Source of the DNA: Yamagishiella unicocca
Taxonomy: Eukaryota; Chlorophyta; Chlorophyceae; Chlamydomonadales; Volvocaceae
Assembly: GCA_003116995.1 (NCBI GenBank)
Contig: BDSL01000052.1
Coordinates: 62,001-126,000, forward strand
Direction of reading: 5' to 3'
DNA length: 64,000 bases
How positions within the stretch are numbered: the stretch's first letter is position 1; each line of letters starts with the position of its first letter. The notes below the pieces were generated by a model. That model had not been told where the DNA came from. It searched no databases and was given only the letters and a program-made list of their open reading frames with translations. The translations under genes and the position numbers were made by a program. Shown in pieces: positions 41,367 to 64,000 of this stretch.

Positions 41367-44300
41367 ATGAGGCGCCGTTTTGGCAACCATGGTAGCCATT
41401 CCCGCTTATCTATGTCCAATCGGCAGCAAGGATGCTTTACAGATGTAAAGGCAGGCATAACGGTTGCGTCATTTGGCAGCACAGTGCAATCCGATGGAAA
41501 GCGTCAGCAAGGCTACTGTCATGCGCGAGCGCAGGCCAGCTGCAATGTGCCTCGACGTGGAGCGGTTTGGAAAACCGCATTTGCCGTCGTTCCATCCTTA
41601 GCGTTGCTCCTGGTCATCGGGTGCCTGCTGCCCTGCACTATGGCGGAATCCTCGTACGGTCCATTCAACTCAGCTGATGATATCAACGAACAACGTGAGG
41701 CCCCCGACAGCACTGTTAGCTCGCTGGCTCTTCAATTATTCTGCCCGATCTTCTAAAGGACCTTCCCGCCTTCCCATTCTTGTGGATTTTTCCGGCGCGC
41801 AGACAAGGGCCTCCTCAGCTTTATCCTGAGCGGCAACACCAGCTTCTGGAGCCGGCCTGAGGTGGCTACCCGCATTGGCTTCGGGACTGCACCCTGGCGC
41901 TGCATCAGCCGCTGCAGCGCGCAGTACTACAGCTCGGCAGCGGCGTGTGCCCCTGACTGCGCCAACCAGACGTACTGCGAGCCGGGAGGTAGGGTGTTGT
42001 GAGGTGATAGGCGGGCGATACGTGTGTTGCCGTCGTTACGATATAATTGGGCGAGGCTGGAACCGTCAACGCCACACATAGCACCTATGTGATTTGAAGC
42101 CACATACGCGTACGGGCTAACACATTTCCTTGCTTGGTTCCATGCGTTTCTGTCCGCCATTCCACGACTGAGCAGGTGCCGCCCTCAGTGACGCGAATAC
42201 CACGTGCTGCGCCCTGAGCTTGCTGGACCAGTCGTACAGCTTCAAGCAGCCACCCCAAGGCACGCAGCCCAGTTGGTGCAGCACCTACCCTGCATGGTGG
42301 GTCCGATCTAGCGATCTGCGGTGCGAAAGGAATGATATTGGTTTTTTCGGTTGCCGGCTCTCTTACTTGTCATTGCATCCCTTATTATTTCCCTTGGCGC
42401 TCAACGTTTTGTTCCCGTGCCTGCCTGTCGTCATCCATCCTTGCGAGCAGGGGTACCGACCCCCGCCCCAGCGTGTGCGACTTCAACGCCTACAGCGCCC
42501 GTGGCGCCTCCCCCCCTGACGGCGCTGATGACCCGTACCTGTCCGTGGCGTGCACGCGCACTCTCACTCCCACCTTTTCGATCACTGGCTCGCAATATCG
42601 CAACGACACGGCCGCTCGCGTCATGCACTATGGCGAGGTGAAGCAGGCACCTGACGTGCTGCGCAACACGATCAAGCGCCTGTGAGTTACTCAGTTACTG
42701 GAGGTTAGGGCTCAGTGTTAGGGTCTCGTGTAAGGGTCATCTATCTATCTGTGTGTACCATATGTAATCCTAGTATGTTCGTTACCTATCTAGGCTATAT
42801 CTGCCTTGCATCCCTGCCGTCCTTTCCTTGCCGCTTTCAGCAGACACATAATCCCTCGTCCCTGTATTTATAATTGCAGCTCGCTCCGTCACACCGCTGC
42901 CTGGCACCACCCTGATATCGCCATCATTAATCCTCCTGTGTTCAGCCTGGTAGATGAGCTCGTGTGCCTGCCGCTGGAGGAAATGTGAGTGGCAGCAGGT
43001 GTTGCGCGGTTTACCAAGTCAAGTCTGATTGGAAAACGATTTATCGATGCGCTCGTGTTCGGGAGCGCTATTCGCATCCTTACGCGCTACACCGCTGAAG
43101 AGGACGAGCCAGTGCGCCCAGCGTTATTTGATGCGTATGGGGCTGTCGGTTCGCGTCTTCATGTTTGCGCTTACCTGACCCATCTGCCTGTTGCCTATGG
43201 TCCGGCATCATGCCGTCGCTTTTGGTCATCCGTCACCTGATTACATATCTTGCGCTTGACTCTGCCTCTTCGCCTCCCTTTTCCCCGCTCTCCTCTCAGC
43301 TACTTCGAGGACGTAACATTCCGCCGAGAGCACTGGGTGCAGGCCACATATGAGGACCAGAGGGGGATCGGTGGTGTCTCTTGGGACCTGTAAGTGCCTT
43401 GGGCGTGAAAGCCAACTGGGGGGCATGACGGTCCATTGTTGCTGCCGCTGTGCGCTGTTCACCACCGGCTAGATAGCTAGATAGCTATCCGCTGTTTTTT
43501 TGGGTTGAGCGCCTGCAAGCCCCTGGTCACTGTTTACGGCTTGCGGCTTGCATCGCAGGTTCGACTACAAGACTTGGGCCTCCGATCCGAAGCTCAATCA
43601 ATCCGGCCAGACAGGCGCAGGCAATTACTTCAGCTTAATGCAATGTGAGTGCCATGTCTTCAGGCCGCTAACGTCGCTTGTGCGAACGTGCATGGTGTGC
43701 GCGCGTCACGCAACGCGGCCCGGGACCGTGACTGTGTCACCTGAAATGCGTGGGTACTTTCAGAAGTGCCTCAACGCACGGGTGGAGCAAGAGGACAGCA
43801 CGGTGACGACAACAGTTACCAACGGACATATACGTACATGGGGGCAGTGTTACGCGCACTTCATAACCTTCATTCTGCTGCCGATAACCCCGTGCACGTA
43901 TCTGGCGCGCCCATGCATTTGCCATGCATGTGCAGCGGACGAGGGTGTCGTGCAGGCGTCGGTGAGGCCTAACACTACCAGCCTCAACCCCAAGCTGGCG
44001 CTCCGCAGTCATGCCATGCAAACATGCACGTTCTCCCCTTTCGCGGAGCTCAATGCGATCAGGTGCGCAGTGAGGCCTTTAGGCTCTGTCTGACCCCAGG
44101 CACGTCCCTGCTGCCTGCTTGCGCAGCTCATTGCTCGATTGCGTGCAGGTAGGCCGCTTGCGGTCCGCCTTTCTGCGCCAAACCTCCGCGTGTGTGGCCC
44201 AAGTATTACGTCGATGCCTTCCGTGTGCACCTGACCCCCACCTCGTGTCTACCTGTATGTACCCGCAGGTGGACTGGTCGGGCGCGCCAGGATTGGAGCG

Positions 44301-46527
44301 CGGCGCTTCGCAATGCGCTGTCGTCTGTGAGCTACGGCAACCAGACCCTGCCCAGGGGCTGGCTGCCCGACGTGGCTGACCCCGTGGCTGCTCGGAAGTT
44401 CCTGCCCGACACTTTGCGCCGCATCACCATCAAGCGCACGCACGACTATAAACACGGGGATCCGTGGTGGTACAGCCAACCTGCGATTGACGGCCAGCTG
44501 CCCGCCGAGTGGGCTTTGTTTGGCAACCTCGAGCACATGTGAGTATAGTTACAAGGGTGCTGCTTCCCGCTCTTCCCTCCTCAACATCGTGTACGGTACC
44601 TATCTTTCACTTACAATTATACTTATGCGTCCAGCTCTTTCCCATGCAGCCCCCTCCCAGTCCCCAATCCACGCTGAAATATGTATCCTGCCAGCCTGTC
44701 GGTCACTTAGCCTTGCATGACACGCGTTCCTACGCAGCTGCCTTTTTACGTGTCGCCCTGATCACGCGCACACGCCCGCAGAGACCTGAGTGATGAGATG
44801 GGAATGGGCAGGATCGATGGCCCCATCCCCAGCACCTGGCTCATGATGACCAAGCTTCACACAATGTAAGGTGGCGCGCAGGGCGAGGACGGCAGCCCTG
44901 TGCGCTATGTATCACCGAATGCTAAAAAAAGGAGCGTGCGTGGAAGCTACTCTTGCTCACTGCGGCCCGTGCCAGCGGATGTGGGATGTACGCACGTTGT
45001 GTCGGGCTGTATTAATTGATGCACCTTGATGCACCACGCACGCACGCTTCCGCCGGTAGTGTCGTTTAAAATCCTGCTGATTGGGCTGCCTTCCTTACTG
45101 CATTTATCCCCTCCTGCGGTACACAGCAACATGACGGGCCATCCAAACTTCTGCAAGGACTGGCACAGGTGAGTGGAACTGGGATCTATGTCCCAGATAC
45201 CTGCAGTGGGCTGCGTCGTACTTATTCCGCTTCGGAGTACGATATGCGGCAAGCAGCGACGAAACTGGGGTCGAAGGACGAGGTAGCTCATACGCCGTCT
45301 TTCGCACAACTCCTGACTAGCTGAATTGTGGCAAGCTCGACCTACACACAGTGCTGCACATGGTGCAGGCGGCACGCTCCTCGACTGCAGATTGCGAGAG
45401 TACCGGTACCCTCATTGCTCTTCGATCCCGACTGGCCGCCTGAATTCGCAGGATTGTTTCATATCAGATCATGAAGTATTACAGAGCATCGGGAGTCGCT
45501 GGCACATGGTCATTGACGCGCTACTACGGTCCCATCAACTCCACCGACAAAGCCTTCCAGTATAACGTCACCGTTTCGAACCTTGACGGGTACGGATGGC
45601 AGTGGTACGACAACAATACCGGTGAAGGTGAGCCTGGCACGTGCCGTTACCTGGCGTTAGTTGTTGGCATCATAGATAGGTTGTGGTTTGCGGATAATTG
45701 TTGGCATCATAGATAGGTTGTGGTTTGCGGATAATTGCAATTGTTACTACATCCCCTACAATCATGCATTTCCCATTGTCCGCTCGCTTACTGATGCCCT
45801 CGCTTACTGACGCCCGCAGCTGGTTACGTCAACGTGATTGCGCCGGACGGCAAGTGCTGCTGGGACACGTACTCCTCGCAGTTTAAGAACCGCAACTACA
45901 CGATTGAGGGTCCGTCCGGCGTGGACGGCCCAGGCGACTACACCGGCGTGTTTTACGAGCGCCAGGAGTTCTGTGAGAAGAGCCCGCCCATCGTGCCGCT
46001 CCCGCCGCAGCCCGCGGCAGCTCTTCACCCGCCCGATGCGCCCTCGGCGCCTCCATTCCCTCCCGCTGCTTCTGGCACTGTGATGAACCCGCCCCGGCCT
46101 CCACGCCTCCCGCCGTTGCCGCCATCCTCGCCGCTGCGTGTCGCACCTCCGCAGCCACCCCTGCCTCCCACGGCGCCCGGGAAATGGCCCGGAGCGTGGC
46201 CTTTCCGGTCACCCCGGCCTCTTCCACCGCAACCTCCATCCCCCCCAAAGCCGCCTCCATCACCAGCACCCCCGCCGCGGTCTTCGAGCCCGCCAACACC
46301 GCGGCCCCCACCACCTCGGCCTCCCCCACGCCCCCCATCACCACCACCACCACGGCCTCCATCACCGCCGCGGCCCCCGTCACCCCTGCCATCGCCGCCG
46401 CCATCGCCACCCCTGCAATCGCCGCCGCCATCGCCGCCCCCGTCACCCCTGCCACCGCCGCCGCCATCGCCAACACCATCGCCGCCGCCGTCGCCGCTGC
46501 CGCCGTCGCCGTCTCCATCGCCGGCGC

Positions 46528-46558
<31 letters not shown>

Positions 46559-49500
46559 GCCGCCGTCGCCGCCGCCAACGCCGCCGTCGCCATCGCCCCC
46601 TAGCCCACCCAGTCCGCCGCCGCCACAGCCTCCATCACCAACACCCCCGCCGCGGCCTTCGAGCCCGCCACCACCGCGGCCCCCACCACCGCGGCCTCCG
46701 CCACGGCCTCCATCGCCACCACCACTGCGGCCCCCATCACCACCGGCCCCCCCGTCACCCCTGCCATCGCCGCGGCCACCGCCGCCCCCGTCGCCCCTGC
46801 CATCGCCGCCGCCCTCACCACCGCCCTCGCCGCCGCCTTCGCCGCCGCCGTCACCGCCGCCATTGGTGCCACCACCAACGCCGCCAACGCCTCCTTCGCC
46901 GCCCCCCCCTAGCCCACCCAGTCCGCCTCCACCACGACCTCCATCACCAGCACCCCCGCCGCGGCCTTCGAGCCCGCCACCACCACGGCCCCCACCACCG
47001 CGGCCTCCGCCACGACCCGCATCACCACCACCACCGCGGCCCCCATCACCACCGCCGCCCCCGTCGCCCCTGCCATCGCCGCCACCATCACCGCCCCCGT
47101 CACCCCTGCCATCGCCGCCGCCATCGCTGCCGCCAACGCCTCCCCCGTCGCCCCTGCCATCGCCGCCGCCATCGCCGCCCCCGTCACCCCTGCCATCGCC
47201 GCCGCCATCGCCGCCGCCATCGCCACCGCCGCCATCGCCGCCGCCATCGCCACCGCCGCCATCGCCGCCGCCATCGCCACCGCCGTCGCCGCCGCCGCCA
47301 TCACCGTCGCCATCGTCACCGCCAGCACCGTCGCCATCGCCGCCGCCAGCACCACCACCACCAGCACCGCCGCCATCGTCGCCTTCGGGCCCCCCCCCTA
47401 ACCCGTCCAGTCCGCCACCGCCACGGCCTCCATCACCACCGCCTCCGAAACCACCTAGCCCGCCACCGCCGCGGCCTCCATCGCCACCGCCCCCGAAGCC
47501 ACCCAGCCCGCCACCGCCGCGGCCTCCATCACCACCGCCCCCGAAGCCACCCAGCCCGCCACCGCCGCGGCCTCCATCACCACCACCCCCGAAGCCACCC
47601 AGCCCGCCACCGCCGCGGCCTCCATCACCACCGCCCCCCAAGCCACCCAGCCCGCCACCACCGCAGCCTCCATCACCACCGCCCCCCAAGCCACCCAGCC
47701 CGCCACCACCGCAGCCTCCATCACCATCGCCACTGCCCCCGTCGCCGACGCCGCCGACGCCAAGCCCAGAGCCTTTATCTTCACCTCCGTCGCCGTTGGA
47801 GGCCCAAAACAATTCTCCGCCCGGTCAGGTTGCTACAAACCTGTATGGTCCTTTCTACGCACAGGATGACCTGAACGAACAACGTGAGGCAAATGTGCAC
47901 GTATGATGCATGTATTAACATCGTTTAATGTACACGTAAAATGATCGATTGCACTTATCTGCCTTGTCAAATCAATTGAATACCGGTAACCTTCAAACTG
48001 CCCCATCTCGTCACCAGCGTGTCACGACCTGCCTATCAATCTGCCCGATCTCGTCATCAGCATGTCATGAGCTGCCTACCTATCAAGCTTGCCATACATG
48101 AATATGTCATTCGCACTTTTTCCGGTGCGCAGACAAGGGCCTCCTCAGCTTTATCCTGAGCGGCAACACCAGCTTCTGGAGCCGGCCTGAGGTGGCCACC
48201 CGCATTGGCTTCGGGACTGCACCCTGGCGCTGCATCAGCCGCTGCAGCGCGCAGTACTACCGCTCGGCAGCGGCGTGTGCCCCCGACTGCGCCAACCAGA
48301 CGTACTGCGAGCCAGGAGGTACGGTGTTGTGAGGTGCTGATAGGCGGGCGATACGTGTGTTGCCGTCGTTACGATATAATTGGGCGACGCTGGAACCGTC
48401 AACGCCACACATAGCACCTTTGTGATTTGAAGCCACATACGCGTACGGGCTAACACATTTCCTTGCTTGGTTCCATGCGTTTCTGTCCGCCATTCCACGA
48501 CTGCGCAGGTGCCGCCCTCAGTGACGCGAATACCACGTGCTGCGCTCTGAGCTTGCTGGACCAGTCGTACAGCTTCAAGCAGCCACCCCAAGGCACGCAG
48601 CCCAGTTGGTGCAGCACCTACCCTGCATGGTGGGTCCGATCTAGCGATCTGCGGTGCGAAAGGAATGATATTGGTCTTTTCGGTTGCCGGCTCTCTTACT
48701 TGTCATTGCATTCCTTATTATTTCCCTTGGCGCTCAACTGTTTGTTCCCGTGCCTGGCTGTCGTCATCCATCCTTGCGAGCAGGGGTACCGACCCCCGCC
48801 CCAGCGTGTGCGACTTCAACGCCTACAGCGCCCGTGGCGCCTCCCCCCCTGACGGCGCTGATGACCCGTACCTGTCCGTGGCGTGCACGCGCACTCTCAC
48901 TCCCACCTTTTCGATCACTGGCTCGCAATATCGCAACGACACGGCCGCTCGCGTCATGCACTATGGCGAGGTGAAGCAGGCACCTGACGTGCTGCGCAAC
49001 TCGATCAAGCGCCTGTGAGTTCAGTTACTGGAGGTTAGGGCTCAGTGTTAGGGTCTCGTGTAAGGGTCATCTATCTATCTGTGTGTACCATATGTAATCC
49101 TAGTATGTTCGTTACCTATCTAGGCTATATCTGCCTTGCATCCCTGCCGTCCTTTCCTTGCCGCTATCAGCAGACACATAATCCCTCGTCCCTGTATTTA
49201 CAATTGCAGCTCGCTCCGTCACACCGCTGCCTGGCACCACCCTGATGTCGCCATCATCGATCCTCCTGTGTTCAGCCTGGTAGATGAGCTCGTGTGCCTG
49301 CCGCTGGAGGAAATGTGAGTAGTGGCAGCCCGACGTGGAGCGGGGAGGGCCAGTACGCACAACCCGCACTACGTACTGCTACTTATTACCTGGTGACCTG
49401 TATTCTTCATGATTCCCTGCTTGGCTAGAACCACTCGGTCATGTCTGACCGTTCAGCAGGCAACGCAAAACCTGCATTTTACTCAAGACCGTTGGCCTTT

Positions 49501-52500
49501 CCCCTGCCCGCCTGCCTGGCAGCTACTTCGAGGACATCATCTTCCGCCGTGAGCACCATCAGCTGGCCACTTATGAGGATCAGAAGGGGACCGGCGGCAT
49601 CTCTTGGGACCTGTAAGTGCCGCGGCCGTGAGCCTAACGAGGGCGACCATGACGGTCCACTGCTGCTGCCGATGTGTGCTCCGCCTGCTAGCTATCCGGC
49701 TGAAGTATTGGTTCAAGCGAATGCCGGCCCCTTGCTCATGCTTTGTCATTTGCCGCAGGTTTGATCACAAAACGTGGACCTCCGATCCCAAGAGCAACCC
49801 AATTGGCCAGCCCGCAAGCAGCTACTTCAGCTTGATGCAATGTGAGTGACGGGTCAGGCCACGCACATCTAACCCCTATCTGCAATTAAAAGTAATTATT
49901 TGCCAACCGATAATCCCACGTCACCTTCGGCGCGCCCATGCATTTGCCATGCGTGTGCAGCGGACGAGGGTGTCGTACAGGCGTCGGTGAGGCCTAACAC
50001 TACCAGCCTCAACCCCAAGCTGGCGCTCCGCAGTCATGCCATGCAAACATGCACGTTCTCCCCTTTCGCGGAGCTCAATGCGATCAGGTACGCAGTGAGG
50101 CCTTTAGGCTCTGTCTGACCCCAGGCACGTCCCTGCTGCCTGCTTGCGCAGCTCATTGCTCGATTGCGTGCAGGTAGGCCGCTTGCGGTCCGCCTTTCTG
50201 CGCCAAATCTCCGCGTGTGTGGCCCCCGTATTCCGTCGATGCTTTCCTTGTGCACCTGACCCCCACCTCGTGTCTACCTGTATGTACCCGCAGGTGGACT
50301 GGTCGGGCGCGTCAGGATTGGAGCACGGCGCTTCGCAATGCGCTGTCGTCTGTGAGCTACGGCAACCAGACCCTGCCCAGGGGCTGGCTGCCCGACGTGG
50401 CTGACCCCGTGGCTGCTCGGAAGTTCCTGCCCGACACTTTGCGCCGCATCACCATCAAGCGCACGCACGATGCCAAACACGGGGATCCGTCGTGGTACAG
50501 CCAACCTGCGATGCAAGGACAGCTGCCCGCCGAGTGGGCTTTGTTCGGCAACCTCGAGCACATGTGAGCCAGGAGTGTGATAAACAGGCAGGGTTGTTGA
50601 TGTACGATAATTGTCTTCTGCTGCCCCATCTCCCTCTATGTGCGGTCAGCTCGCTCCCAAGCATCCGCGTCCCGGCCCCCTGCTCACGTGTCGCCCTGAT
50701 CTATCACACCTGCTCGCAGAGATCTGAGTGATGAGATGGGAATGGGCAAGATCGATGGCCCCATCCCCAGCACCTGGCTCATGATGACCAAGCTTCGGAC
50801 CATGTAAGCTTGGCTTGGGGTGGAGGCTAACCTCACCGCCTGCCGGCGCCGGGGCTTTATTTGCTGCCGCGCTCTATGGCTCTGCTGGCGAATACAGCAG
50901 CCTGTAGCAGCCACGCCGATTATTTCCCTGTGCTCGGCCATCCCCTAAATGAGTTACCTTGTCCTCGGCCCTTCGTTTCACCCGCCGTGTCGCAGCAACA
51001 TGACGGGCCATCCAAACTTCTGCAAGGACTGGCACAGGTGAGCGGGTATGCGTGGAACATTCTCTGTGGACTTGCTTACGAGCGATCCGGTTTTCCCGGC
51101 TTACATCCGCCTTTGTCTTGGTGGCAACTTGTTATGATACTTCAAACGCGGCGGATCAAACCAGTTATACCTCGATTCCAAGCCAAACAAGCGCAATTTC
51201 CTCACAATGCTCACTGCCGTTGACTTGCAGGATTGTTTCATATCAGATCATAAAGTATTACAGAGCATCGGGAGTTGCTGGAACATGGTCTTTGTCGCGC
51301 TACTACGGTCCCATCAACTCCACCGATAAAGCCTTCCAGTATAACATCACCGTTTCAAATCTTGATGGGTACGGATGGCAGTGGTACGACAACAGCTCCG
51401 GCGAAGGTGAGCCTGGCACGTGCCGTGACCTGGCGTTAGTTGTTGGCATGATGGATAGATTGTTGCTTGTTTGCATATGGTTGTTCCCTACAAAAACACA
51501 TTTCCAATTGTCCGCTCGCTTACTGATGCCCGCAGCTGGTTACGTCAACGTGATTGCGCCGGACGGCCAGTGCTGCTGGGACACGTACTCCTCGCAGTTT
51601 AAGGACCGCAACTACACGATTGAGGGTCCGTCCGGCGTGGACGGCCCAGGCGACTACAACGGCGTGTTTTACGAGCGCCAGGAGTTCTGTGAGAAGAGCC
51701 CGCCCATCGTGCCGCTCCCGCGACAGCCCGCGGCAGCTCTTCACCCGCCCGATACGCCCTCGGCGCCTCCATTCCCTCCGGCTGCTTCTGGCACTGCGAT
51801 GACCCCCCCCCGGCCTCCACGCCTCCCGCCGTTGCCGCCATCCTCGCCGCTGCGCCCCGCCGCACCTCCGCGCCCACCGCTGCCTCCCACCGTGCCGGGG
51901 AAATGGCCCGGAGCGTGGCCTTCCCGGGTGCCGTTTCTGACCAGGTCGACACCTCCCATGACGATGACTCCCACGACGATGTCACCACCGATGCCTCCAT
52001 CACCACCGCCCCCGAAGCCACCCAGCCCGCCACCGCCGCGGCCTCCATCACCACCGCCCCCGAAGCCACCCAGCCCGCCACCGCCGCGGCCTCCATCACC
52101 ACCGCCCCCGAAGCCACCCAGCCCGCCACCACCGCCGCGGCCTCCATCACCACCGCCGCGGCCTCCATCACCACCGCCGCGGCCTCCATCACCACCGCCC
52201 CCCAAGCCACCCAGCCCGCCACCACCGCAGCCTCCATCACCACCGCCCCCCAAGCCACCCAGCCCGCCACCACCGCAGCCTCCATCACCATCGCCACTCC
52301 CCCCGTCGCCGACGCCGCCGACGCCAAGCCCAGAGCCTTTATCTTCACCTCCGTCGCCGTTGGAGGCCCAAAACAATTCTCCGCCCGGTCAGGTTGCTAC
52401 AAACCTGTATGGTCCTTTCTACGCACAGGATGACCTGAACGAACAACGTGAGGCAAATGTGCACGTATGATGCATGTATTAACATCGTTTAATGTACACG

Positions 52501-55500
52501 TAAAATGATCGATTGCACTTATCTGCCTTGTCAAATCAATTGGATACCGGTAACCTTCAAACTGCCCCATCTCGTCACCAGCGTGTCACGACCTGCCTAT
52601 CAATCTGCCCGATCTCGTCATCAGCATGTCATGAGCTGCCTATCAAGCTTGCCATACATGAATATGTCATTCGCATTTTTTCCGGTGCGCAGACAAGGGC
52701 CTCCTCAGCTTTATCCTGAGCGGCAACACCAGCTTCTGGAGCCGGCCTGAGGTGGCCACCCGCATTGGCTTCGGGACTGCACCCTGGCGCTGCATCAGCC
52801 GCTGCAGCGCGCAGTACTACCGCTCGGCAGCGGCGTGTGCCCCCGACTGCGCCAACCAGACGTACTGCGAGCCAGGAGGTACGGTGTTGTGAGGTGATGA
52901 TAGGCGGGCGATACGTGTGTTGCCGTCGTTACGATATAATTGGGCGACGCTGGAACCGTCAACGCCACACATAGCACCTTTGTGATTTGAAGCCACATAC
53001 GCGTACGGGCTAACACATTTCCGTGCTTGGTTCCATGCGTTTCTGTCCGCCATTCCACGACTGCGCAGGTGCCGCCCTCAGTGACGCGAATACCACGTGC
53101 TGCGCCCTGAGCTTGCTGGACCAGTCGTACAGCTTCAAGCAGCCACCCCAAGGCACGCAGCCCAGTTGGTGCAGCACCTACCCTGCATGGTGGGTCCGAT
53201 CTAGCGATCTGCGGTGCGAAAGGAATGATATTGGTCTTTTCGGTTGCCGGCTCTCTTACTTGTCATTGCATCCCTTATTATTTCCCTTGGCGCTCAACTG
53301 TTTGTTCCCGTGCCTGCCTGTCGTCATCCATCCTTGCGAGCAGGGGTACCGACCCCCGCCCCAGCGTGTGCGACTTCAACGCCTACAGCGCCCGTGGCGC
53401 CTCCCCCCCTGACGGCGCTGATGACCCGTACCTGTCCGTGGCGTGCACGCGCACTCTCACTCCCACCTTTTCGATCACTGGCTCGCAATATCGCAACGAC
53501 ACGGCCGCTCGCGTCATGCACTATGGCGAGGTGAAGCAGGCACCTGACGTGCTGCGCAACACGATCACGCGCCTGTGAGTTTCAGTACTGGAGGTTAGGG
53601 CTCAGTGTTAGGGTTTCGTGTAAGGGTCATCTATCTATCTGTGTGTACCATATGTAATCCTAGTATGTTCGTTACCTATCTAGGCTATATCTGCCTTGCA
53701 TCCCTGCCGTCCTTTCCTTGCCGCTATCAGCAGACACATAATCCCTCGTCCCTGTATTTATAATTGCAGCTCGCTCCGTCACACCGCTGCCTGGCACCAC
53801 CCTGATGTCGCCATCATCGATCCTCCTGTGTTCAGCCTGGTAGATGAGCTCGTGTGCCTGCCGCTGGAGGAAATGTGAGTAGTGGCAGCCCGAAGATGAG
53901 CGGGGAGGGCCAGTACGCACAACCCGCACTACGTACTGCTACTTATTACCTGGTGACCTGTATTCTTCATGATTCCCTGCTTGGCTAGAACCACTCGGTC
54001 ATGTCTGACCGTTCAGCAGGCAACGCAAAACCTGCATTTTACTCAAGACCGTTGGCCTTTCCCCTGCCCGCCTGCCTGGCAGCTACTTCGAGGACATCAT
54101 CTTCCGCCGTGAGCACCATCAGCTGGCCACTTATGAGGATCAGAAGGGGACCGGCGGCATCTCTTGGGACCTGTAAGTGCCGCGGCCGTGAGCCTAACGT
54201 GGGCGACCATGACGGTCCACTGCTGCTGCCGATGTGTGCTCCGCCTGCTAGCTATCCGGCTGAAGTATTGGTTCAAGCGAATGCCGGCCCCTTGCTCATG
54301 CTTTGTCATTTGCCGCAGGTTTGATCACAAGACGTGGACCTCCGATCCCAAGAGCAACCCAATTGGCCAGCCCGCAAGCAGCTACTTCAGCTTGATGCAA
54401 TGTGAGTGACGGATCAGGCAACGCACATCTAACCCCTATCTGCAATTAAAAGTAATTATTTGCCAACCGATAATCCCACGTCACCTTCGGCGCGCCCATG
54501 CATTTGCCATGCGTGTGCAGCGGACGAGGGTGTCGTACAGGCGTCGGTGAGGCCTAACACTACCAGCCTCAACCCCAAGCTGGCGCTCCGCAGTCATGCC
54601 ATGCAAACATGCACGTTCTCCCCTTTCGCGGAGCTCAATGCGATCAGGTACGCAGTGAGGCCTTTAGGCTCTGTCTGACCCCAGGCACGTCCCTGCTGCC
54701 TGCTTGCGCAGCTCATTGCTCGATTGCGTGCAGGTAGGCCGCTTGCGGTCCGCCTTTCTGCGCCAAATCTCCGCGTGTGTGGCCCCCGTATTCCGTCGAT
54801 GCTTTCCTTGTGCACCTGACCCCCACCTCGTGTCTACCTGTATGTACCCGCAGGTGGACTGGTCGGGCGCGTCAGGATTGGAGCACGGCGCTTCGCAATG
54901 CGCTGTCGTCTGTGAGCTACGGCAACCAGACCCTGCCCAGGGGCTGGCTGCCCGACGTGGCTGACCCCGTGGCTGCTCGGAAGTTCCTGCCCGACACTTT
55001 GCGCCGCATCACCATCAAGCGCACGCACGATGCCAAACACGGGGATCCGTCGTGGTACAGCCAACCTGCGATGCAAGGACAGCTGCCCGCCGAGTGGGCT
55101 TTGTTCGGCAACCTCGAGCACATGTGAGCCAGGAGTGTGATAAACAGGCAGGGTTGTTGATGTACGATAATTATCTTCTGCTGCCCCATCTCCCTCTATG
55201 TGCGGTCAGCTCGCTCCCAAGCATCCGCGTCCCGGCCCCCTGCTCACGTGTCGCCCTGATCTATCACACCTGCTCGCAGAGATCTGAGTGATGAGATGGG
55301 AATGGGCAAGATCGATGGCCCCATCCCCAGCACCTGGCTCATGATGACCAAGCTTCGGACCATGTAAGCTTGGCTTGGGGTGGAGGCTAACCTCACCGCC
55401 TGCCGGCGCCGGGGCTTTATTTGCTGCCGCGCTCTATGGCTCTGCTGGGGAATACAGCAGCCTGTAGCAGCCACGCCGATTATTTCCCTGTGCTCGGCCA

Positions 55501-58500
55501 TCCCCTAAATGAGTTACCTTGTCCTCGGCCCTTCGTTTCACCCGCCGTGTCGCAGCAACATGACGGGCCATCCAAACTTTTGCAAGGACTGGCACAGGTG
55601 AGCGGGATCCGTGGAACATTCTCTGTGGACTTGCTTACGAGCGATCCGGTTTTCCCGACTTACATCCGCCTTTGTCTTGGTGGCAACTTGTTATGATACT
55701 TCAAACGCGGCGGATCAAACCAGTTATACCTCGGTTCCAAGCCAAACAAGCGCAATTTCCTCACAATGTGCTCACTGCCGTTGACTTGCAGGATTGTTTC
55801 ATATCAGATCATCAAGTATTACAGAGCATCGGGAGTTGCTGGAACATGGTCTTTGTCGCGCTACTACGGTCCCATCAACTCCACCGATAAAGCCTTCCAG
55901 TATAACATCACCGTTTCAAATCTTGATGGGTACGGATGGCAGTGGTACGACAACAGCTCCGGCGAAGGTGAGCCTGGCACGTGCCGTGACCTGGCGTTGT
56001 TGGCATGATGGATAGATTGTTGCTTGTTTGCATATGGTTGTTCCCTACAAAAACACATTTCCAATTGTCCGCTTGCTTACTGATGCCCGCAGCTGGTTAC
56101 GTCAACGTGATTGCGCCGGACGGCCAGTGCTGCTGGGACACGTACTCCTCGCAGTTTAAGGACCGCAACTACACGATTGAGGGTCCGTCCGGCGTGGACG
56201 GCCCAGGCGACTACAACGGCGTGTTTTACGAGCGCCAGGAGTTCTGTGAGAAGAGCCCGCCCATCGTGCCGCTCCCGCGACAGCCCCAAGCAGCTCTTCA
56301 CCCGCCCGATACGCCCTCGGCGCCTCCATTCCCTCCGGCTGCTTCTGGCACTGCGATGAACCCGCCCCGGCCTCCACGCCTCCCGCCGTTGCCGCCATCC
56401 TCGCCGCTGCGCCCCGCCGCACCTCCGCGCCCACCGCTGCCTCCCACCGTGCCGGGGAAGTGGCCCGGAGCGTGGCCTTCCCGGGTGCCGTTTCTGACCA
56501 GGTCGACACCTCCCATGACGATGACTCCCACGACGATGCCACCACCGATGCCTCCATCGCCACCGCCCCCGACGCCACCCAGCCCGCCACCGCCGCGGCC
56601 TCCATCACCACCGCCCCCGAAGCCACCCAGCCCGCCACCGCCGCGGCCTCCATCACCACCGCCCCCCAAGCCGCCCAGCCCGCCACCACCGCCGCGGCCT
56701 CCATCACCACCGCCGCGGCCTCCATCACCACCGCCGCGGCCTCCATCACCACCGCCCCCCAAGCCACCCAGCCCGCCACCACCGCAGCCTCCATCACCAC
56801 CGCCCCCCAAGCCACCCAGCCCGCCACCACCGCAGCCTCCATCACCACCGCCACTGCCCCCGTCGCCGACGCCGCCGACGCCAAGCCCAGAGCCTTTATC
56901 TTCACCTCCGTCGCCGTTGGAGGCCCAAAACAATTCTCCGCCCGGTCAGGTTGCTACAAACCTGTATGGTCCTTTCTACGCACAGGATGACCTGAACGAA
57001 CAACGTGAGGCAAATGTGCACGTATGATGCATGTATTAACATCGTTTAATGTACACGTAAAATGATCGATTGCACTTATCTGCCTTGTCAAATCAATTGA
57101 ATACCGGTAACCTTCAAACTGCCCCATCTCGTCACCAGCGTGTCACGACCTGCCTATCAATCTGCCCGATCTCGTCATCAGTATGTCATGAGCTGCCTAT
57201 CAAGCTTGCCATACATGAATATGTCATTCGCACTTTTTCCGGTGCGCAGACAAGGGCCTCCTCAGCTTTATCCTGAGCGGCAACACCAGCTTCTGGAGCC
57301 GGCCTGAGGTGGCCACCCGCATTGGCTTCGGGACTGCACCCTGGCGCTGCATCAGCCGCTGCAGCGCGCAGTACTACCGCTCGGCAGCGGCGTGTGCCCC
57401 CGACTGCGCCAACCAGACGTACTGCGAGCCAGGAGGTACGGTGTTGTGAGGTGCTGATAGGCGGGCGATACGTGTGTTGCCGTCGTTACGATATAATTGG
57501 GCGACGCTGGAACCGTCAACGCCACACATAGCACCTTTGTGATTTGAAGCCACATACGCGTACGGGCTAACACATTTCCGTGCTTGGTTCCATGCGTTTC
57601 TGTCCGCCATTCCACGACTGCGCAGGTGCCGCCCTCAGTGACGCGAATACCACGTGCTGCGCTCTGAGCTTGCTGGACCAGTCGTACAGCTTCAAGCAGC
57701 CACCCCAAGGCACGCAGCCCAGTTGGTGCAGCACCTACCCTGCATGGTGGGTCCGATCTAGCGATCTGCGGTGCGAAAGGAATGATATTGGTCTTTTCGG
57801 TTGCCGGCTCTCTTACTTGTCATTGCATCCCTTATTATTTTCCTTGGCGCTCAACTGTTTGTTCCCGTGCCTGGCTGTCGTCATCCATCCTTGCGAGCAG
57901 GGGTACCGACCCCCGCCCCAGCGTGTGCGACTTCAACGCCTACAGCGCCCGTGGCGCCTCCCCCCCTGACGGCGCTGATGACCCGTACCTGTCCGTGGCG
58001 TGCACGCGCACTCTCACTCCCACCTTTTCGATCACTGGCTCGCAATATCGCAACGACACGGCCGCTCGCGTCATGCACTATGGCGAGGTGAAGCAGGCAC
58101 CTGACGTGCTGCGCAACTCGATCAAGCGCCTGTGAGTTCAGTTACTGGAGGTTAGGGCTCAGTGTTAGGGTTTCGTGTAAGGGTCATCTATCTATCTGTG
58201 TGTACCATATGTAATCCTAGTATGTTCGTTACCTATCTAGGCTATATCTGCCTTGCATCCCTGCCGTCCTTTCCTTGCCGCTATCAGCAGACACATAATC
58301 CCTCGTCCCTGTATTTACAATTGCAGCTCGCTCCGTCACACCGCTGCCTGGCACCACCCTGATGTCGCCATCATCGATCCTCCTGTGTTCAGCCTGGTAG
58401 ATGAGCTCGTGTGCCTGCCGCTGGAGGAAATGTGAGTAGTGGCAGCCCGAAGATGAGCGGGGAGGGCCAGTACGCACAACCCGCACTACGTACTGCTACT

Positions 58501-61500
58501 TATTACCTGGTGACCTGTATTCTTCATGATTCCCTGCTTGGCTAGAACCACTCGGTCATGTCTGACCGTTCAGCAGGCAACGCAAAACCTGCATTTTACT
58601 CAAGACCGTTGGCCTTTCCCCTGCCCGCCTGCCTGGCAGCTACTTCGAGGACATCATCTTCCGCCGTGAGCACCATCAGCTGGCCACTTATGAGGATCAG
58701 AAGGGGACCGGCGGCATCTCTTGGGACCTGTAAGTGCCGCGGCCGTGAGCCTGACGAGGGCGACCATGACAGTCCACTGCTGCTGCCGATGTGTGCTCCG
58801 CCTGCTAGCTATCCGGCTGAAGTATTGGTTCAAGCGAATGCCTGCCCCTTGCTCATGCTTTGTCATTTGCCGCAGGTTTGATCACAAAACGTGGACCTCC
58901 GATCCCAAGAGCAACCCAATTGGCCAGCCCGCAAGCAGCTACTTCAGCTTGATGCAATGTGAGTGACGGGTCAGGCCACGCACATCTAACCCCTATCTGC
59001 AATTAAAAGTAATTATTTGCCAACCGATAATCCCACGTCACCTTCGGCGCGCCCATGCATTTGCCATGCGTGTGCAGCGGACGAGGGTGTCGTACAGGCG
59101 TCGGTGAGGCCTAACACTACCAGCCTCAACCCCAAGCTGGCGCTCCGCAGTCATGCCATGCAAACATGCACGTTCTCCCCTTTCGCGGAGCTCAATGCGA
59201 TCAGGTACGCAGTGAGGCCTTTAGGCTTTGTCTGACCCCAGGCACGTCCCTGCTACCTGCTTGCGCAGCTCATTGCTCGATTGCGTGCAGGTAGGCCGCT
59301 TGCGGTCCGCCTTTCTGCGCCAAATCTCCGCGTGTGTGGCCCCCGTATTCCGTCGATGCTTTCCTTGTGCACTTGACCCCCACCTCGTGTCTACCTGTAT
59401 ATACCCGCAGGTGGACTGGTCGGGCGCGTCAGGATTGGAGCACGGCGCTTCGCAATGCGCTGTCGTCTGTGAGCTACGGCAACCAGACCCTGCCCAGGGG
59501 CTGGCTGCCCGACGTGGCTGACCCCGTGGCTGCTCGGAAGTTCCTGCCCGACACTTTGCGCCGCATCACCATCAAGCGCACGCACGATGCCAAACACGGG
59601 GATCCGTCGTGGTACAGCCAACCTGCGATGCAAGGACAGCTGCCCGCCGAGTGGGCTTTGTTCGGCAACCTCGAGCACATGTGAGCCAGGAGTGTGATAA
59701 ACAGGCAGGGTTGTTGATGTACGATAATTATCTTCTGCTGCCCCATCTCCCTCTTTGTGCGGTCAGCTCGCTCCCAAGCATCCGCGTCCCGGCCCCCTGC
59801 TCACGTATCGCCCTGATCTATCACACCTGCTCGCAGAGATCTGAGTGATGAGATGGGAATGGGCAAAATCGATGGCCCCATCCCCAGCACCTGGCTCATG
59901 ATGACCAAGCTTCGGACCATGTAAGCTTGGCTTGGGCGCAGGTTCGGCTGCCGGCGCCGGGCGTTTGATGACGTGCTCTGTGGCTCTGCTGGGGAATACA
60001 GCAGCCTGTAGCAGCCACGCCTATTATTTCCCTGTGCTCGGCCATCCCCTAAATGAGTTACCTTGTCCTCGGCCCTTCGTTTCACCCGCCGTGTCGCAGC
60101 AACATGACGGGCCATCCAAACTTCTGCAAAGACTGGCACAGGTGAGCGGATATGCGTGGAACGGGTATGCGTGGAACATTCTCTGTGGACTTGCTTACGA
60201 GTGATCCGGTTTTCCCGGCTTACACCTGCCTTTGTCTTGGTGGCAACTTGTTATGATACTTCAAACGCGGCGGATCAGGTGGCAACTTGTTATGATACTT
60301 CAAACGCGGCGGATCAAACCAGTTATACCTCGGTTCCAAGCCAAACAAGCGCAATTTCCTCACAATGCTCACTGCCGTTGACTTGCAGGATTGTTTCATA
60401 TCAGATCATCAAGTACTACAGAGCATCGGGAGTTGCTGGAACATGGTCTTTGTCGCGCTACTACGGTCCCATCAACTCCACCGATAAAGCCTTCCAGTAT
60501 AACATCACCGTTTCAAATCTTGATGGGTACGGATGGCAGTGGTACGACAACAGCTCCGGCGAAGGTGAGCCTGGCACGTGCCGTGACCTGGCGTTGTTGG
60601 CATGATGGAAAGATTGTTGCTTGTTTGCATATGGTTGTTCCCTACAAAAACACATTTCCAATTGTCCGCTCGCTTACTGATGCCCGCAGCTGGTTACGTC
60701 AACGTGATTGCGCCGGACGGCCAGTGCTGCTGGGACACGTACTCCTCGCAGTTTAAGGACCGCAACTACACGATTGAGGGTCCGTCCGGCGTGGAAGGCC
60801 CAGGCGATTACACCGGCGTGTTTTACGAGCGCCAGGAGTTCTGTGAGAAGAGCCCGCCCATCGTGCCGCTCCCGCGGCAGCCCCAAGCAGCTCTTCACCC
60901 GCCCGATACGCCCTCGGCGCCTCCATTCCCTCCGGCTGCTTCTGGCACTGTGACGACGCCGCCCCGGCCTCCGCGCCTCCCGCCGTTGCCGCCATCCTCG
61001 CCGCTGCGCCCCGCCGCACCTCCGCGCCCACCCCTGCCCCCCACCGCGCCCGGGAAATGGTCCGGTGCGTGGCCTGCCCGGGTGCCGTTTCTGACCAGGT
61101 CGACACCTCCACCACCCACTCTCTCTTCGCCGAGAGCTAACCTATCAGTGTCACCTCCAAGGCCCAGTCCTCAGCCACCGAGTCCGACACCGGCGCCGCC
61201 TCGCGAGTTCAATGACACCGAGGCGTTGAGGTCCGCGAAGGCGCTCCCGCCAATGCCAGAGTCTGATGAATGCACTCTTGCCGCCGCCCAAGTGAGCTTC
61301 GCAGTGCCAGAAACCTCTCGCGGACCCTTCTACATTGCACTGGCGGTCCCCGACTCGTCTCCAACGTTTTGCAACACGTGCGGGTGCAATGTGTCGTACG
61401 CCGTTTTTGACAGAGGCGTCTCCGCCCTGTATGCCGGCGCGGCGGGCGTTGACAGTAGTATCGGCACTCCAGACAGCCGCGATGCAGGCGCGGCCAGTGG

Positions 61501-64000
61501 CAGTCTTGACACTGTTGGCTCGGTTTCGAGCCAGCAGCAGGCAGCTTTCGAGGCCAGGGCCCTGCCGACACTGCTGGAGCTATTGAAGGCCGGAAAGGGC
61601 GCTGCCGCCGCTAAAGTTGGAAGCTTGCAGGTAAGGCGGCGGATGCGAACCGGTTACGCGTTTTATTTTAAGACTGGCTGTTTCGCGCGAAGTTGTGCAC
61701 CAGCAGGCTGGGATATTTTCGTGCGAACGCTCCAGCTGGAGCCGCACGTGCAGCTGAACGTGTTCCAAGGACGGTATGGACTATGGAGTAACCTGAACCT
61801 GCCATCTGCACTGCTCCTAACCCTGATGATTCCACGGCATCTGACGTCGACACTTACGGCCCGTTCGGTTGTGAACCGTGTCTAGGCCATCGACCTGACC
61901 ACTGGATCTGAGCAGGCGCCTGTCAACGCTGTCAGTGGCGGGACAAGCAGCGCGCCAAAGGGGCGTGGCAACGGCGTGAGCTACAAGAGCACCGGCGACG
62001 ATGGAGGCACGGGACTGGACGCGGCGTGGCGGCTGGATCCAGGAGGCAGTGGCGATTACCTTGTCCACATCCAGGTCGGTAGCTTGGCTAGGTAGCTTGC
62101 CAAGATTGGCAACAAGCCCCCAATCGCAGCAAGTCTCCATTCGCACGATAGGGCCTACCCGATCACTCCTTGCTATTAAACTGAACCCATTGCCGGTACG
62201 TAGAAGACGACAGCATTCGCGAAATCCGTAATGGCCTGACGAACCTTCTCCCGCGGGCACCAACACTGCGTCATTCGGAACACAGGTCGGTGGCCTTGAT
62301 TGGTGGCGATGGGTGGCAGTGGACGTCAACCCGCCGCGTACTTCGGGCGTGCTGCTGGTGGCGAACACTACTGAGTCGGTTGCCAAGCCCGCCACCGCTG
62401 GCGTGAGCGTGGCCGCGTCTTCTCTGCGATACCTGGTGCTCCAGCTCAACATCTCTGAGCCCGTCCAGGAGTTCGACCTGGCTAATGTGCTGCAGCTAGG
62501 TGGCGGAGCGCGGCTCATCGAGGCGCGCTGCGTCGCGACTGCGCCCGCCGCTGATGGTGCGTCGCCGTCGCCGCCGCCTGGGCCGCCGACATCGCTCTCT
62601 CAACAAACTCTGACGCCGACCAGTCCCCCGACACCGCCAGCGTCGACGACCCCAGAGCACCCGGCGCCAAAGGAGCCTGCGCCGCTTTCGCCAGCGGTTG
62701 AAGAATGGATGTTGTCGAGCGGCGGTGATGATGATGCTTCCGTGTTGGCGTCGGTCGCCGCTGCGTCCGGTCAGCCGTACGTTCAGTCGTGCGTGGCGGT
62801 CCTGTACGCGGTGGACGGCACCAGCCCCTCGGTCACCCTCCCAGCGGGAGCCATCGTGGACCTCATGGGCAACCCCAGCACCACGTGAGTGAAGGGGGCA
62901 GCGGCCACGCCAGCAGCGAGCACGGGCGCACCATGGAAACGCCTGCAACACATGCTTTAGTGTCGTGCTACGCCTGGTGTATCTTGTACACTTTCTAAAA
63001 TGCCCATGTGTTCTCTCTCTATTCATAAACTATGCTACGCTTTACTGCCACGATTCAACCTGCGCAAAAACACAATTCCTTTACCAAACAAACAGCAGCA
63101 ACGAATGCATCTGGCATCTCGTAAGATACACAGGGCCTGTGCCACAGGCAGAGGTGCGCACCGCATCACTAGCAATGTAAGCTCTTGTTGATTGCCGCCC
63201 TGATCTGCCGCCATCCTACGCCCTATACTTATGGCAACCAGGCCGCTGACGCTCGAGGTGCAGCTGCCCAGCCCGACCAGCGCCGCCGCCGACAACATTG
63301 CAGCACCCGCCTCCGCGGTGGTGGGCGGCGTGTTGGCCAGTGCAGCCGTTACGTCGGCTTCCGTGCCCTTCCTGACAGCAGCCTCTGCCCCCGTCCGCTC
63401 AGCGCTGCTGCAGAGCGCCTTCCAGGTCCAGGTGCGCCCTGCCTTGCCGTGTGTCAGGTTTGCGCACCTGCACCCCATCGAGGGGGGGCTTGACGTCGTG
63501 GCCTGACGTTGTGGTTCACTCACTCTTCCGTCGGTGGGCAGCATAGGGTCTTTTAACAATTTCCGGCTTTCATACTTTGCCCGTTGAGCGACTTTGTGGT
63601 TTACAGTCGCTCACCTGGTAAAGGTATCATTAGTCGAGACCGTGTCGGTCAATCGCACGATGGGGGTGTGACCGCCAGGTGTGGCGGACATTACCCGGCT
63701 GCTGACCCTCCCTGCCTGCCCGCCCTGCCCTGGTTGCAGTTCCTGGCGATGGGCGCTAACCTCGCGTCGCCTGGTGTCAGCCCCGCCTTCCGAAATGTTG
63801 CCCGCTACTTCAGCTGGTCGGTCCTCAGCGTCAAGGGCAGCGTGCCCGCGCTCGACAACGCCTTCAGTAGCACACAGAAGGAGGTCGATATGTCGGAGGA
63901 GGCCAGCAAGCAGCTCGAAAACATGGGTCTGCCTGCCGCCACAGCGTCATCGCAGGTGCAGGAGGCCGCCGTGACGTCACCGACAACGGAGGGGCGCCGG
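41367..64000 (+). CDS. Giant membrane protein with four tandem LRR/Pro-rich ectodomain cassettes (truncated by window end)
   Basis: First exon 41367-41694, then four 12-exon cassettes (listed separately), then exons 61886-62074, 62286-62884, 63242-63431 and 63740 to the edge: 53 exons and exactly 4,153 codons to position 64000. All junctions are GT..AG and all phases agree. The first exon encodes a hydrophobic segment (AFAVVPSLALLLVIGCLLP) preceding CTMA and SSYGPFNSADDINEQ. About 70 residues precede that segment if the ATG at 41367 is used; ATG 41412 would shorten this. After the cassettes come a Cys segment (FCNTCGCNVSYAVF), an Ig-like region ending [15 protein letters not shown], and the conserved [19 protein letters not shown] block. 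The last marks the start of the membrane region in the minus-strand paralogue, whose transmembrane exons must lie beyond the window. An automated annotation might split this into four genes, but cassettes 2-4 have no signal peptide or in-frame start of their own and each Pro-rich exon splices in phase to the next cassette. Confidence 0.85.
41803..47883 (+). other. Ectodomain cassette 1
   Basis: Exons 41803-41988, 42176-42296, 42451-42681, 42880-42984, 43300-43389, 43559-43644, 43936-44062, 44269-44538, 44782-44865, 45127-45168, 45452-45627 and 45820-47883. Enters and leaves in phase 1. It encodes an LRR-cap-like start (KGLLSFILSGNTSFWSRPEV), Cys pairs, two LRRs ([30 protein letters not shown]) and CKDWHR. 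The 2,064-bp last exon carries [16 protein letters not shown] and about 590 Pro-rich residues. Its introns differ from those of cassettes 2-4, so it is the oldest split. The last exon ends LYGPFYAQDDLNEQ, a copy of the mature N-terminal motif. Confidence 0.85.
45658..45735 (+). repeat. 38-bp direct duplication in an intron of cassette 1
   Basis: TTGTTGGCATCATAGATAGG with its following TTGTGGTTTGCGGATAA occurs twice back to back. Cassettes 2-4 have only a relic of it. Confidence 0.8.
48133..52447 (+). other. Ectodomain cassette 2
   Basis: Exons 48133-48318, 48509-48629, 48784-49014, 49210-49314, 49523-49612, 49759-49841, 49961-50087, 50294-50563, 50720-50803, 50996-51037, 51231-51406 and 51536-52447. 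Total 2,427 bp (809 codons), phase 1 at both ends. It has the same domain order as cassette 1 but a Pro-rich part of only about 200 residues. Near-identical to cassette 3 across exons and introns. Confidence 0.85.
52693..57004 (+). other. Ectodomain cassette 3
   Basis: Exons 52693-52878, 53069-53189, 53344-53574, 53770-53874, 54083-54172, 54319-54401, 54521-54647, 54854-55123, 55280-55363, 55556-55597, 55792-55967 and 56093-57004; 2,427 bp, phase 1 at both ends. Offset from cassette 2 is 4,560 bp through the tenth exon. Coding differences are few, for example RNTITRL in place of RNSIKRL. Confidence 0.85.
57250..61630 (+). other. Ectodomain cassette 4, joined to the membrane-proximal region
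   Basis: Exons 57250-57435, 57626-57746, 57901-58131, 58327-58431, 58640-58729, 58876-58958, 59078-59204, 59411-59680, 59837-59920, 60100-60141, 60389-60564 and 60690-61630. The last exon starts like the others but has only a short Pro-rich part. It lacks the YGPFYAQDDLNEQ ending and instead continues into the Cys segment (FCNTCGCNVSYAVF), leaving in phase 0. It is therefore the terminal cassette, equivalent to the single one in the minus-strand paralogue. Confidence 0.85.
60237..60314 (+). repeat. 38-bp direct duplication private to cassette 4
   Basis: GTGGCAACTTGTTATGATAC with its following TTCAAACGCGGCGGATCA occurs twice; cassettes 2 and 3 have one copy. It is a useful marker to tell the near-identical cassettes apart. 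Confidence 0.85.
61886..64000 (+). CDS. Ig-like and membrane-proximal exons (incomplete)
   Basis: Four exons: 61886-62074, 62286-62884, 63242-63431 and 63740 to the window edge. They match minus-strand exons 19768-19592, 19372-18864, 17670-17487 and 17078-16217 in phase and in motifs: [51 protein letters not shown] and [19 protein letters not shown]. The Ig-like exon carries a Pro/Ser-rich insert before its last strand. The first membrane segment would fall just beyond the edge. Confidence 0.85.

Follow-up and report, generated by a model that had tools for sequence, protein, structure and literature searches.

Plant LRR-extensins (LRX) are built from an LRR head on an extensin-like proline rod, and are not known to have a membrane module or serial heads; human CR1 is not known to contain proline rods. 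Repetition of a multi-exon block inside one gene has been described in human nebulin, where the triplicate region (NEB TRI) is reported to consist of eight exons repeated three times as highly similar blocks of 10 kb each, with variation in copy number (PMC9109913). The four long homologous repeats of human CR1 are described as derived from one seven-SCR unit (PMC6883348). The Chlamydomonas mastigoneme protein MST3 is presented as a hyperglycosylated rod rich in hydroxyproline that carries a PKD-like membrane domain, and a role in linking extracellular material with a channel complex was proposed for it (PMC11015965). Chlamydomonas PKD2 is attached to mastigonemes according to a review (PMC8318260), and fission-yeast Pkd2 has been called mechanosensitive (PMC11277609). 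Chlamydomonas FMG1 is outlined in its report as a giant surface protein with 34 repeats sharing almost no sequence (PMC12021028).

The window, i.e. the whole stretch of 64,000 nucleotides of Yamagishiella unicocca DNA analysed here, was compared with itself, and four head-to-tail copies of a 12-exon block were found at 41803-61630 on the + strand. The features of this array, of its tail and of a related gene on the opposite strand are as follows.

9537 to 33800 (approximate ends), - strand: paralogue with one cassette (exons 1-11 at 33097-28601, exon 12 from 28042) and the same type of tail
41367 to 41694, + strand: exon 1 of the gene, with a signal-peptide-like segment (model residues 70-88) and the mature N-terminal motif YGPFNSADDINEQ at its end; start codon provisional
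41787 to 42990, + strand: tract in which copy 1 shares 97.6-97.9% identity with copies 2-4, whereas most of its later introns align poorly
41803 to 47883, + strand: cassette 1, with the 11 fixed exons at 41803-45627 and exon 12 at 45820-47883, ending in YGPFYAQDDLNEQ
43881 to 44543, + strand: second near-identical tract of copy 1 (95.3-95.9%)
47884 to 48132, + strand: inter-cassette phase-1 intron between cassettes 1 and 2, 249 bp
48133 to 52447, + strand: cassette 2, with exons 1-11 at 48133-51406 and exon 12 at 51536-52447
52448 to 52692 and 57005 to 57249, + strand: inter-cassette introns 2-3 and 3-4, 245 bp each
52693 to 57004, + strand: cassette 3, with exons 1-11 at 52693-55967 and exon 12 at 56093-57004
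57250 to 61630, + strand: cassette 4, with exons 1-11 at 57250-60564 and exon 12 at 60690-61630, continuing into a Cys-containing tail
61886 to 64000, + strand: exons t1-t3 of the tail and the first part of t4, the gene going on to a window-equivalent position of about 68257
62763 to 62932, + strand: 170-bp tail patch with 97% identity to 18985-18816 in the paralogue; around it, the tails are about 47% identical as protein

The exon borders were read in copy 1 and then transferred to copies 2-4. In each of the four cassettes, exons 1-11 were 186, 121, 231, 105, 90, 83/86, 127, 270, 84, 42 and 176 bp long, and the proline-rich exon 12 was 2064, 912, 912 and 941 bp in cassettes 1-4, respectively, only exons 6 and 12 varying in length. 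All 48 cassette exons were preceded by AG and followed by GT. The spacings between successive copies were 6330, 4560 and 4557 bp, and BLAST of the copies outside the proline-rich exon aligned tracts of 0.2-8.3 kb at about 89-98% identity, far above chance. An earlier sequence-only reading had described this exon set as occurring four times head to tail, which was confirmed by the lengths, the borders, the spacings and the BLAST identity; its statement that cassettes 1-3 are symmetric in phase also held, both borders of each being in phase 1. Cassette 4 likewise begins in phase 1, whereas its end, which joins the tail, is in phase 0. The frame is free of stops across all four cassettes. As judged by sequence only, a multi-exon in-frame block is repeated inside one gene, as in NEB TRI and CR1. 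Each inter-cassette intron also holds a 43-bp tandem duplication, at 47993-48078, 52557-52646 and 57114-57203, respectively.

At the internal joins, exon 12 of cassettes 1-3 encodes a proline-rich rod followed by YGPFYAQDDLNEQ, the mature N-terminal motif of the following head, so that the rod leads directly into this motif, with no further signal peptide in between. Upstream of the tail, a hydrophobic segment of signal-like type was found in exon 1 of the gene only; hydrophobic segments return only in the tail, which is present after copy 4 only and absent from cassettes 1-3. Because of the run-through of exon 12, the confinement of the signal-like segment to exon 1 and the single tail after copy 4, one gene is far likelier than four, and the anatomy supports one gene spanning the four cassettes. 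The placement of the four cassettes in series in one protein, as read earlier, is likewise favoured by the single open frame, with neither a stop nor a signal peptide at the internal joins.

The copies are unequally related, copies 2-4 being nearly identical and copy 1 more diverged. Across exons 1-11, pairs of copies 2-4 differed at 4-8 of 1515 sites, and copy 1 differed from copies 2-4 at 77-81 of the same 1515 sites. The introns of copies 2-4 showed 22-43 differences per pair in 1870-1883 sites, of which 15-16 in the pairs with copy 4 clustered around an indel in intron 9. The dN/dS ratios were 0-0.15 among copies 2-4, where each pair contributes just 0-2 amino-acid differences, and 0.25-0.28 when copy 1 was compared with them. 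Between copies 1 and 2, introns 1-3 and 7 differed at 20 of 742 sites, and in the remaining seven introns 433 of 1081 sites differed, the two classes having been picked post hoc. The two near-identical tracts of copy 1 (41787-42990 and 43881-44543) are probably gene-conversion patches, as suggested by this uneven distribution. Site patterns in conflict with one tree were few, with 8 sites uniting copies 1 and 3 against 2 and 4, 8 uniting 1 and 4 against 2 and 3, and 3 uniting 1 and 2 against 3 and 4.

Four tandem genes with their own promoters and terminators, merely appearing continuous, would have to do without a signal peptide in copies 2-4 and without a tail in copies 1-3, would lie only 245-249 bp apart, and would have to accommodate an exon 12 that is one open exon from the rod to the next N-terminal motif (ORF 45834-47906). 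This arrangement is considered very unlikely, although the protein would stop at once if the intron following exon 12 were retained (LNEQREANVHV and then a stop), by which shorter products would be conceivable. The volvocine polyadenylation signal TGTAA was not found on the + strand of the three inter-cassette introns; this is a weak point against separate genes, because these introns are short, TGTAA occurs four times within each cassette and, beyond the modelled stop, the first one is reached only after about 1.5 kb. It is just as unlikely that one or two cassettes were duplicated by the assembler. The 99.5-99.7% likeness of copies 2-4 across exons 1-11 is what such an error would leave, but it is opposed by the intronic differences given above for every pair of these copies (15-16 of them clustered in intron 9 in the pairs with copy 4) and by an intron 10 longer by 53-54 bp and an intron 9 shorter by 13 bp in copy 4. 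Exonic differences were also rarer than intronic ones, as expected from selection and not from sequencing noise.

Two further alternatives accept a single gene. Skipping of whole cassettes would make the array a source of isoforms with fewer heads and not of a fixed four-head protein; any of cassettes 1-3 would be removable in frame owing to phase 1 at both ends, and the introns preceding cassettes 2-4 hardly differ from one another (at 1-3 of 245 sites); skipping of all of cassette 4 would break the frame because this cassette ends in phase 0. We rate this reading of the array as improbable. A recent amplification without function, the extra heads being neutral, would agree with copies 2-4 being so alike that decay had little time, but all 48 exons are intact and the low dN/dS ratios, both among copies 2-4 with their few amino-acid changes and between copy 1 and the others, argue against neutrality, which is regarded as scarcely credible. 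The reading preferred here is that one gene, formed by duplication and fusion, encodes a surface glycoprotein of about 5,070 residues with a signal peptide, four heads with their rods, a Cys stalk and a multi-helix membrane module, and that this protein acts as a tether or receptor; on the evidence of the DNA, this is judged to be likely as a whole.

For the history of this gene, tandem gene duplication is proposed as the first step. A fusion between the proline-rich exon of one copy and exon 1 of the following one would then have occurred, with loss of the internal signal peptide and membrane part; we infer this step because exon 12 is composed partly of rod and partly of the end of exon 1. 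An older fusion of two cassettes may have been followed recently by unequal crossing over, which would have added units of 4.56 kb, and parts of copy 1 would be kept alike by gene conversion. Change of cassette number by unequal crossing over, as suggested by the sequence-only reading, fits the array well, the near-identical 4.56-kb units being of the kind that this process would be predicted to produce.

Each head was 578-579 residues long, with 16 cysteines and 11-12 N-glycosylation motifs, and 16 of 16 cysteines were aligned in each of the six pairs compared, out of ten possible among the five cassettes, two of these six pairs including the paralogue. For the whole head of cassette 2, nothing was found in Pfam at E values up to 1. 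Exons 8-10 encode a short stretch like plant-type LRRs, for which the match to LRR_4 (E 0.19, 12.5 bits, with 27 bits required) was not significant. Against PDB, this stretch matched plant LRR receptor kinases, with a best E value of 8.3e-11 reached as a sum of many weak repeats, and plant LRX2 was among the matches with an E value of 1.9. The head is therefore most aptly described as a Cys-rich domain that includes a short LRR-like part. Matches of the first part of the head to MAR_sialic_bdg (E 0.041) and Defensin (E 0.14) were below the Pfam cut-offs and were rejected.

The rods after heads 1-4 were 615, 231, 231 and 132 residues long, respectively, and the rod of cassette 1 contained 390 prolines in its 615 residues. 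The full 5,070-codon model contained 101 SPP motifs and 985 prolines. Long Ser-Pro and poly-Pro sequences in a secreted protein, the secretion being predicted from the signal-like segment, mark the product as a predicted hydroxyproline-rich glycoprotein. A polyproline-II helix rises by 0.31 nm per residue, and the summed rods (1,209 residues), modelled as such a helix, would span at most about 375 nm.

The gene extends about 4.3 kb past the window. The next 20 kb downstream of the window were taken, the first 10 kb of which were read for tail exons, and ten tail exons were modelled, the last ending at position 4257 of this downstream sequence. In the model, the first stop codon lies within tail exon t6, the border of which is provisional; a shift of this border by two bases gives a model of 5,070 codons, with the stop codon counted. 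Hydropathy analysis of the tail gave a weak segment at about residues 4022-4047 of the model and stronger ones at about 4291-4391 and 4925-5014. Owing to these several hydrophobic segments, the tail is predicted to carry a multi-helix module and not one anchor. The single membrane anchor assumed earlier was rejected on the sequence beyond the window, several membrane helices being predicted instead, mostly outside the window. The membrane module gave 22.4 and 21.1 bits against Pfam TRP (PF06011), below the curated cut-off of 28.5, and a TRP identity is a weak lead; because the match is below the cut-off, the mechanosensitivity of Pkd2 is likewise a lead only. A genome-wide search with PF06011 listed one place, on contig C38, and the membrane module of the array gene was not among the places listed; no PF06011 match up to an E value of 1 was found in the modules of the minus-strand paralogue or of the gene on contig C90 that is described below. 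A PKD- or MST3-like module was not supported, no match to PF08016 (PKD_channel) being found up to an E value of 1; the 19 places listed for PF08016 in the genome included none on the contig of the array (C52) or on C90. The second half of the membrane module had no PDB match up to an E value of 10. The matches to Myelin_PLP (E 0.14) and HemY_N (E 0.12) in the tail, and those to Ctr (E 0.022), SPC25 (E 0.029) and DUF202 (E 0.055) in the module of the paralogue, were below the Pfam cut-offs and were not accepted. The pherophorin domain (PF12499, DUF3707) gave no match, at E values up to 1, to either the cassette 2 head or the scanned pieces of the tail.

Relatives were searched for in the 133.4-Mb assembly (1415 contigs). 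With the head of cassette 2 as query and E values up to 0.001, 53 exon-level matches were obtained, all of them on C52, in the array gene and the minus-strand paralogue. The cassette of the paralogue has the same eleven exon lengths, with an 86-bp exon 6, and AG/GT borders, and its exons are 81-82% identical to those of copies 2-4 and 80% identical to those of copy 1. Its head carries 9 N-glycosylation motifs, and its rod comprises 2,442 residues, 70% of them proline, encoded by one exon. The paralogue would thereby gain reach by one long rod under one head, whereas the array gene appears to add heads instead. The 170-bp patch shared by the two tails (62763-62932 and 18985-18816) probably arose by gene conversion between the oppositely oriented paralogues, as its identity to the paralogue against that of its surroundings suggests. 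A like membrane module also occurs in a third gene, at 176.8-188 kb of C90, whose proline-rich ectodomain is a different one and contains similar reading frames at a spacing of 519 bp; a cassette in this gene was rejected, nothing convincing being found across 160-200 kb of the contig (best E 0.48). The pherophorin family PF12499, which is not known outside the volvocine group, gave 161 exon-level matches in the genome, a content indicative of a volvocine-type alga.

As to function, a putative multivalent tether or receptor is proposed, in which the heads would bind glycoproteins of the extracellular matrix or of a partner cell, and tension or occupancy would be passed from the heads to the membrane module. 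The anatomy, the frame, the phases, the divergence pattern and the single-cassette paralogue are direct readings of the DNA; the tether or receptor role is the most likely function and is less certain than the history, the ligand and the mechanics being purely inferential. A more speculative extension, which we consider doubtful, is that the number of heads differs by strain or mating type through unequal crossing over or cassette skipping and tunes the avidity or reach of a matrix-to-membrane sensor, the neighbouring paralogue on the other strand tuning reach through rod length instead.

With the plant LRX proteins, the array gene shares a head joined to a proline rod; the part of its heads that is LRR-like is short. 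In common with nebulin as described, it has a multi-exon block repeated within one gene (PMC9109913); however, nebulin is an intracellular sarcomere protein (PMC9109913), whereas the block here comprises 12 exons and 4.56 kb, belongs to a gene with a signal-like start and is joined within a proline-rich exon. CR1 resembles it in four multi-exon ectodomain repeats before a membrane part, and several binding sites are described in CR1 (PMC6883348); CR1 is composed of SCR domains with its transmembrane part in exons 36-37 (PMC6883348), and the likeness drawn here is one of architecture. The claim that amplification on this scale is unusual therefore stands in part, since the precedents in nebulin (eight exons three times, PMC9109913) and CR1 (a seven-SCR unit four times, PMC6883348) are outlined in those reports. 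The nearest functional model is MST3, likewise a giant algal hydroxyproline-rich rod ending in a multi-helix membrane domain (PMC11015965); its membrane domain is PKD-like, whereas the module here is without a PF08016 match, and a repeated cassette is not described for MST3 in the consulted part of that report (PMC11015965). FMG1 is similar in its serial domains, linker and multi-helix membrane domain (PMC12021028), but its repeats are dissimilar (PMC12021028), whereas the copies here are nearly identical multi-exon units.

In the literature searched (titles and abstract openings), no description of a quadruplicated LRR/proline cassette in a volvocine alga was found among the matches listed. 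The process is already known, both as intragenic multi-exon amplification (nebulin, CR1) and as hydroxyproline rods on membrane domains (MST3). Compared with the literature searched, the combination looks new, namely a series of LRR-like/Cys heads, each followed by a proline rod, ahead of a multi-helix module and built from a 12-exon block. The locus presents a clear and apparently recent gain of whole heads by copying of this block, with the one-head paralogue still adjoining, by which questions of valency, reach and concerted evolution of algal matrix proteins would become directly testable. It is also a warning that genes of such build may be split or collapsed by annotation.

Several further repeats were recorded in the window. 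A (CCGCC) array of 57 copies with 100% matches at 15393-15679 adjoins a membrane-helix exon of the paralogue, and a 225-bp tandem repeat of three copies with 95% matches (13631-14313) lies inside a long minus-strand ORF. A dispersed repeat of about 80-90 bp occurs in four copies, 83-96% identical, at 1849-2021, 4365-4453 and 15899-15989. About 7000-9900 bp past the end of the window, frames resembling a nicotinamidase/isochorismatase-type hydrolase were noticed by eye.
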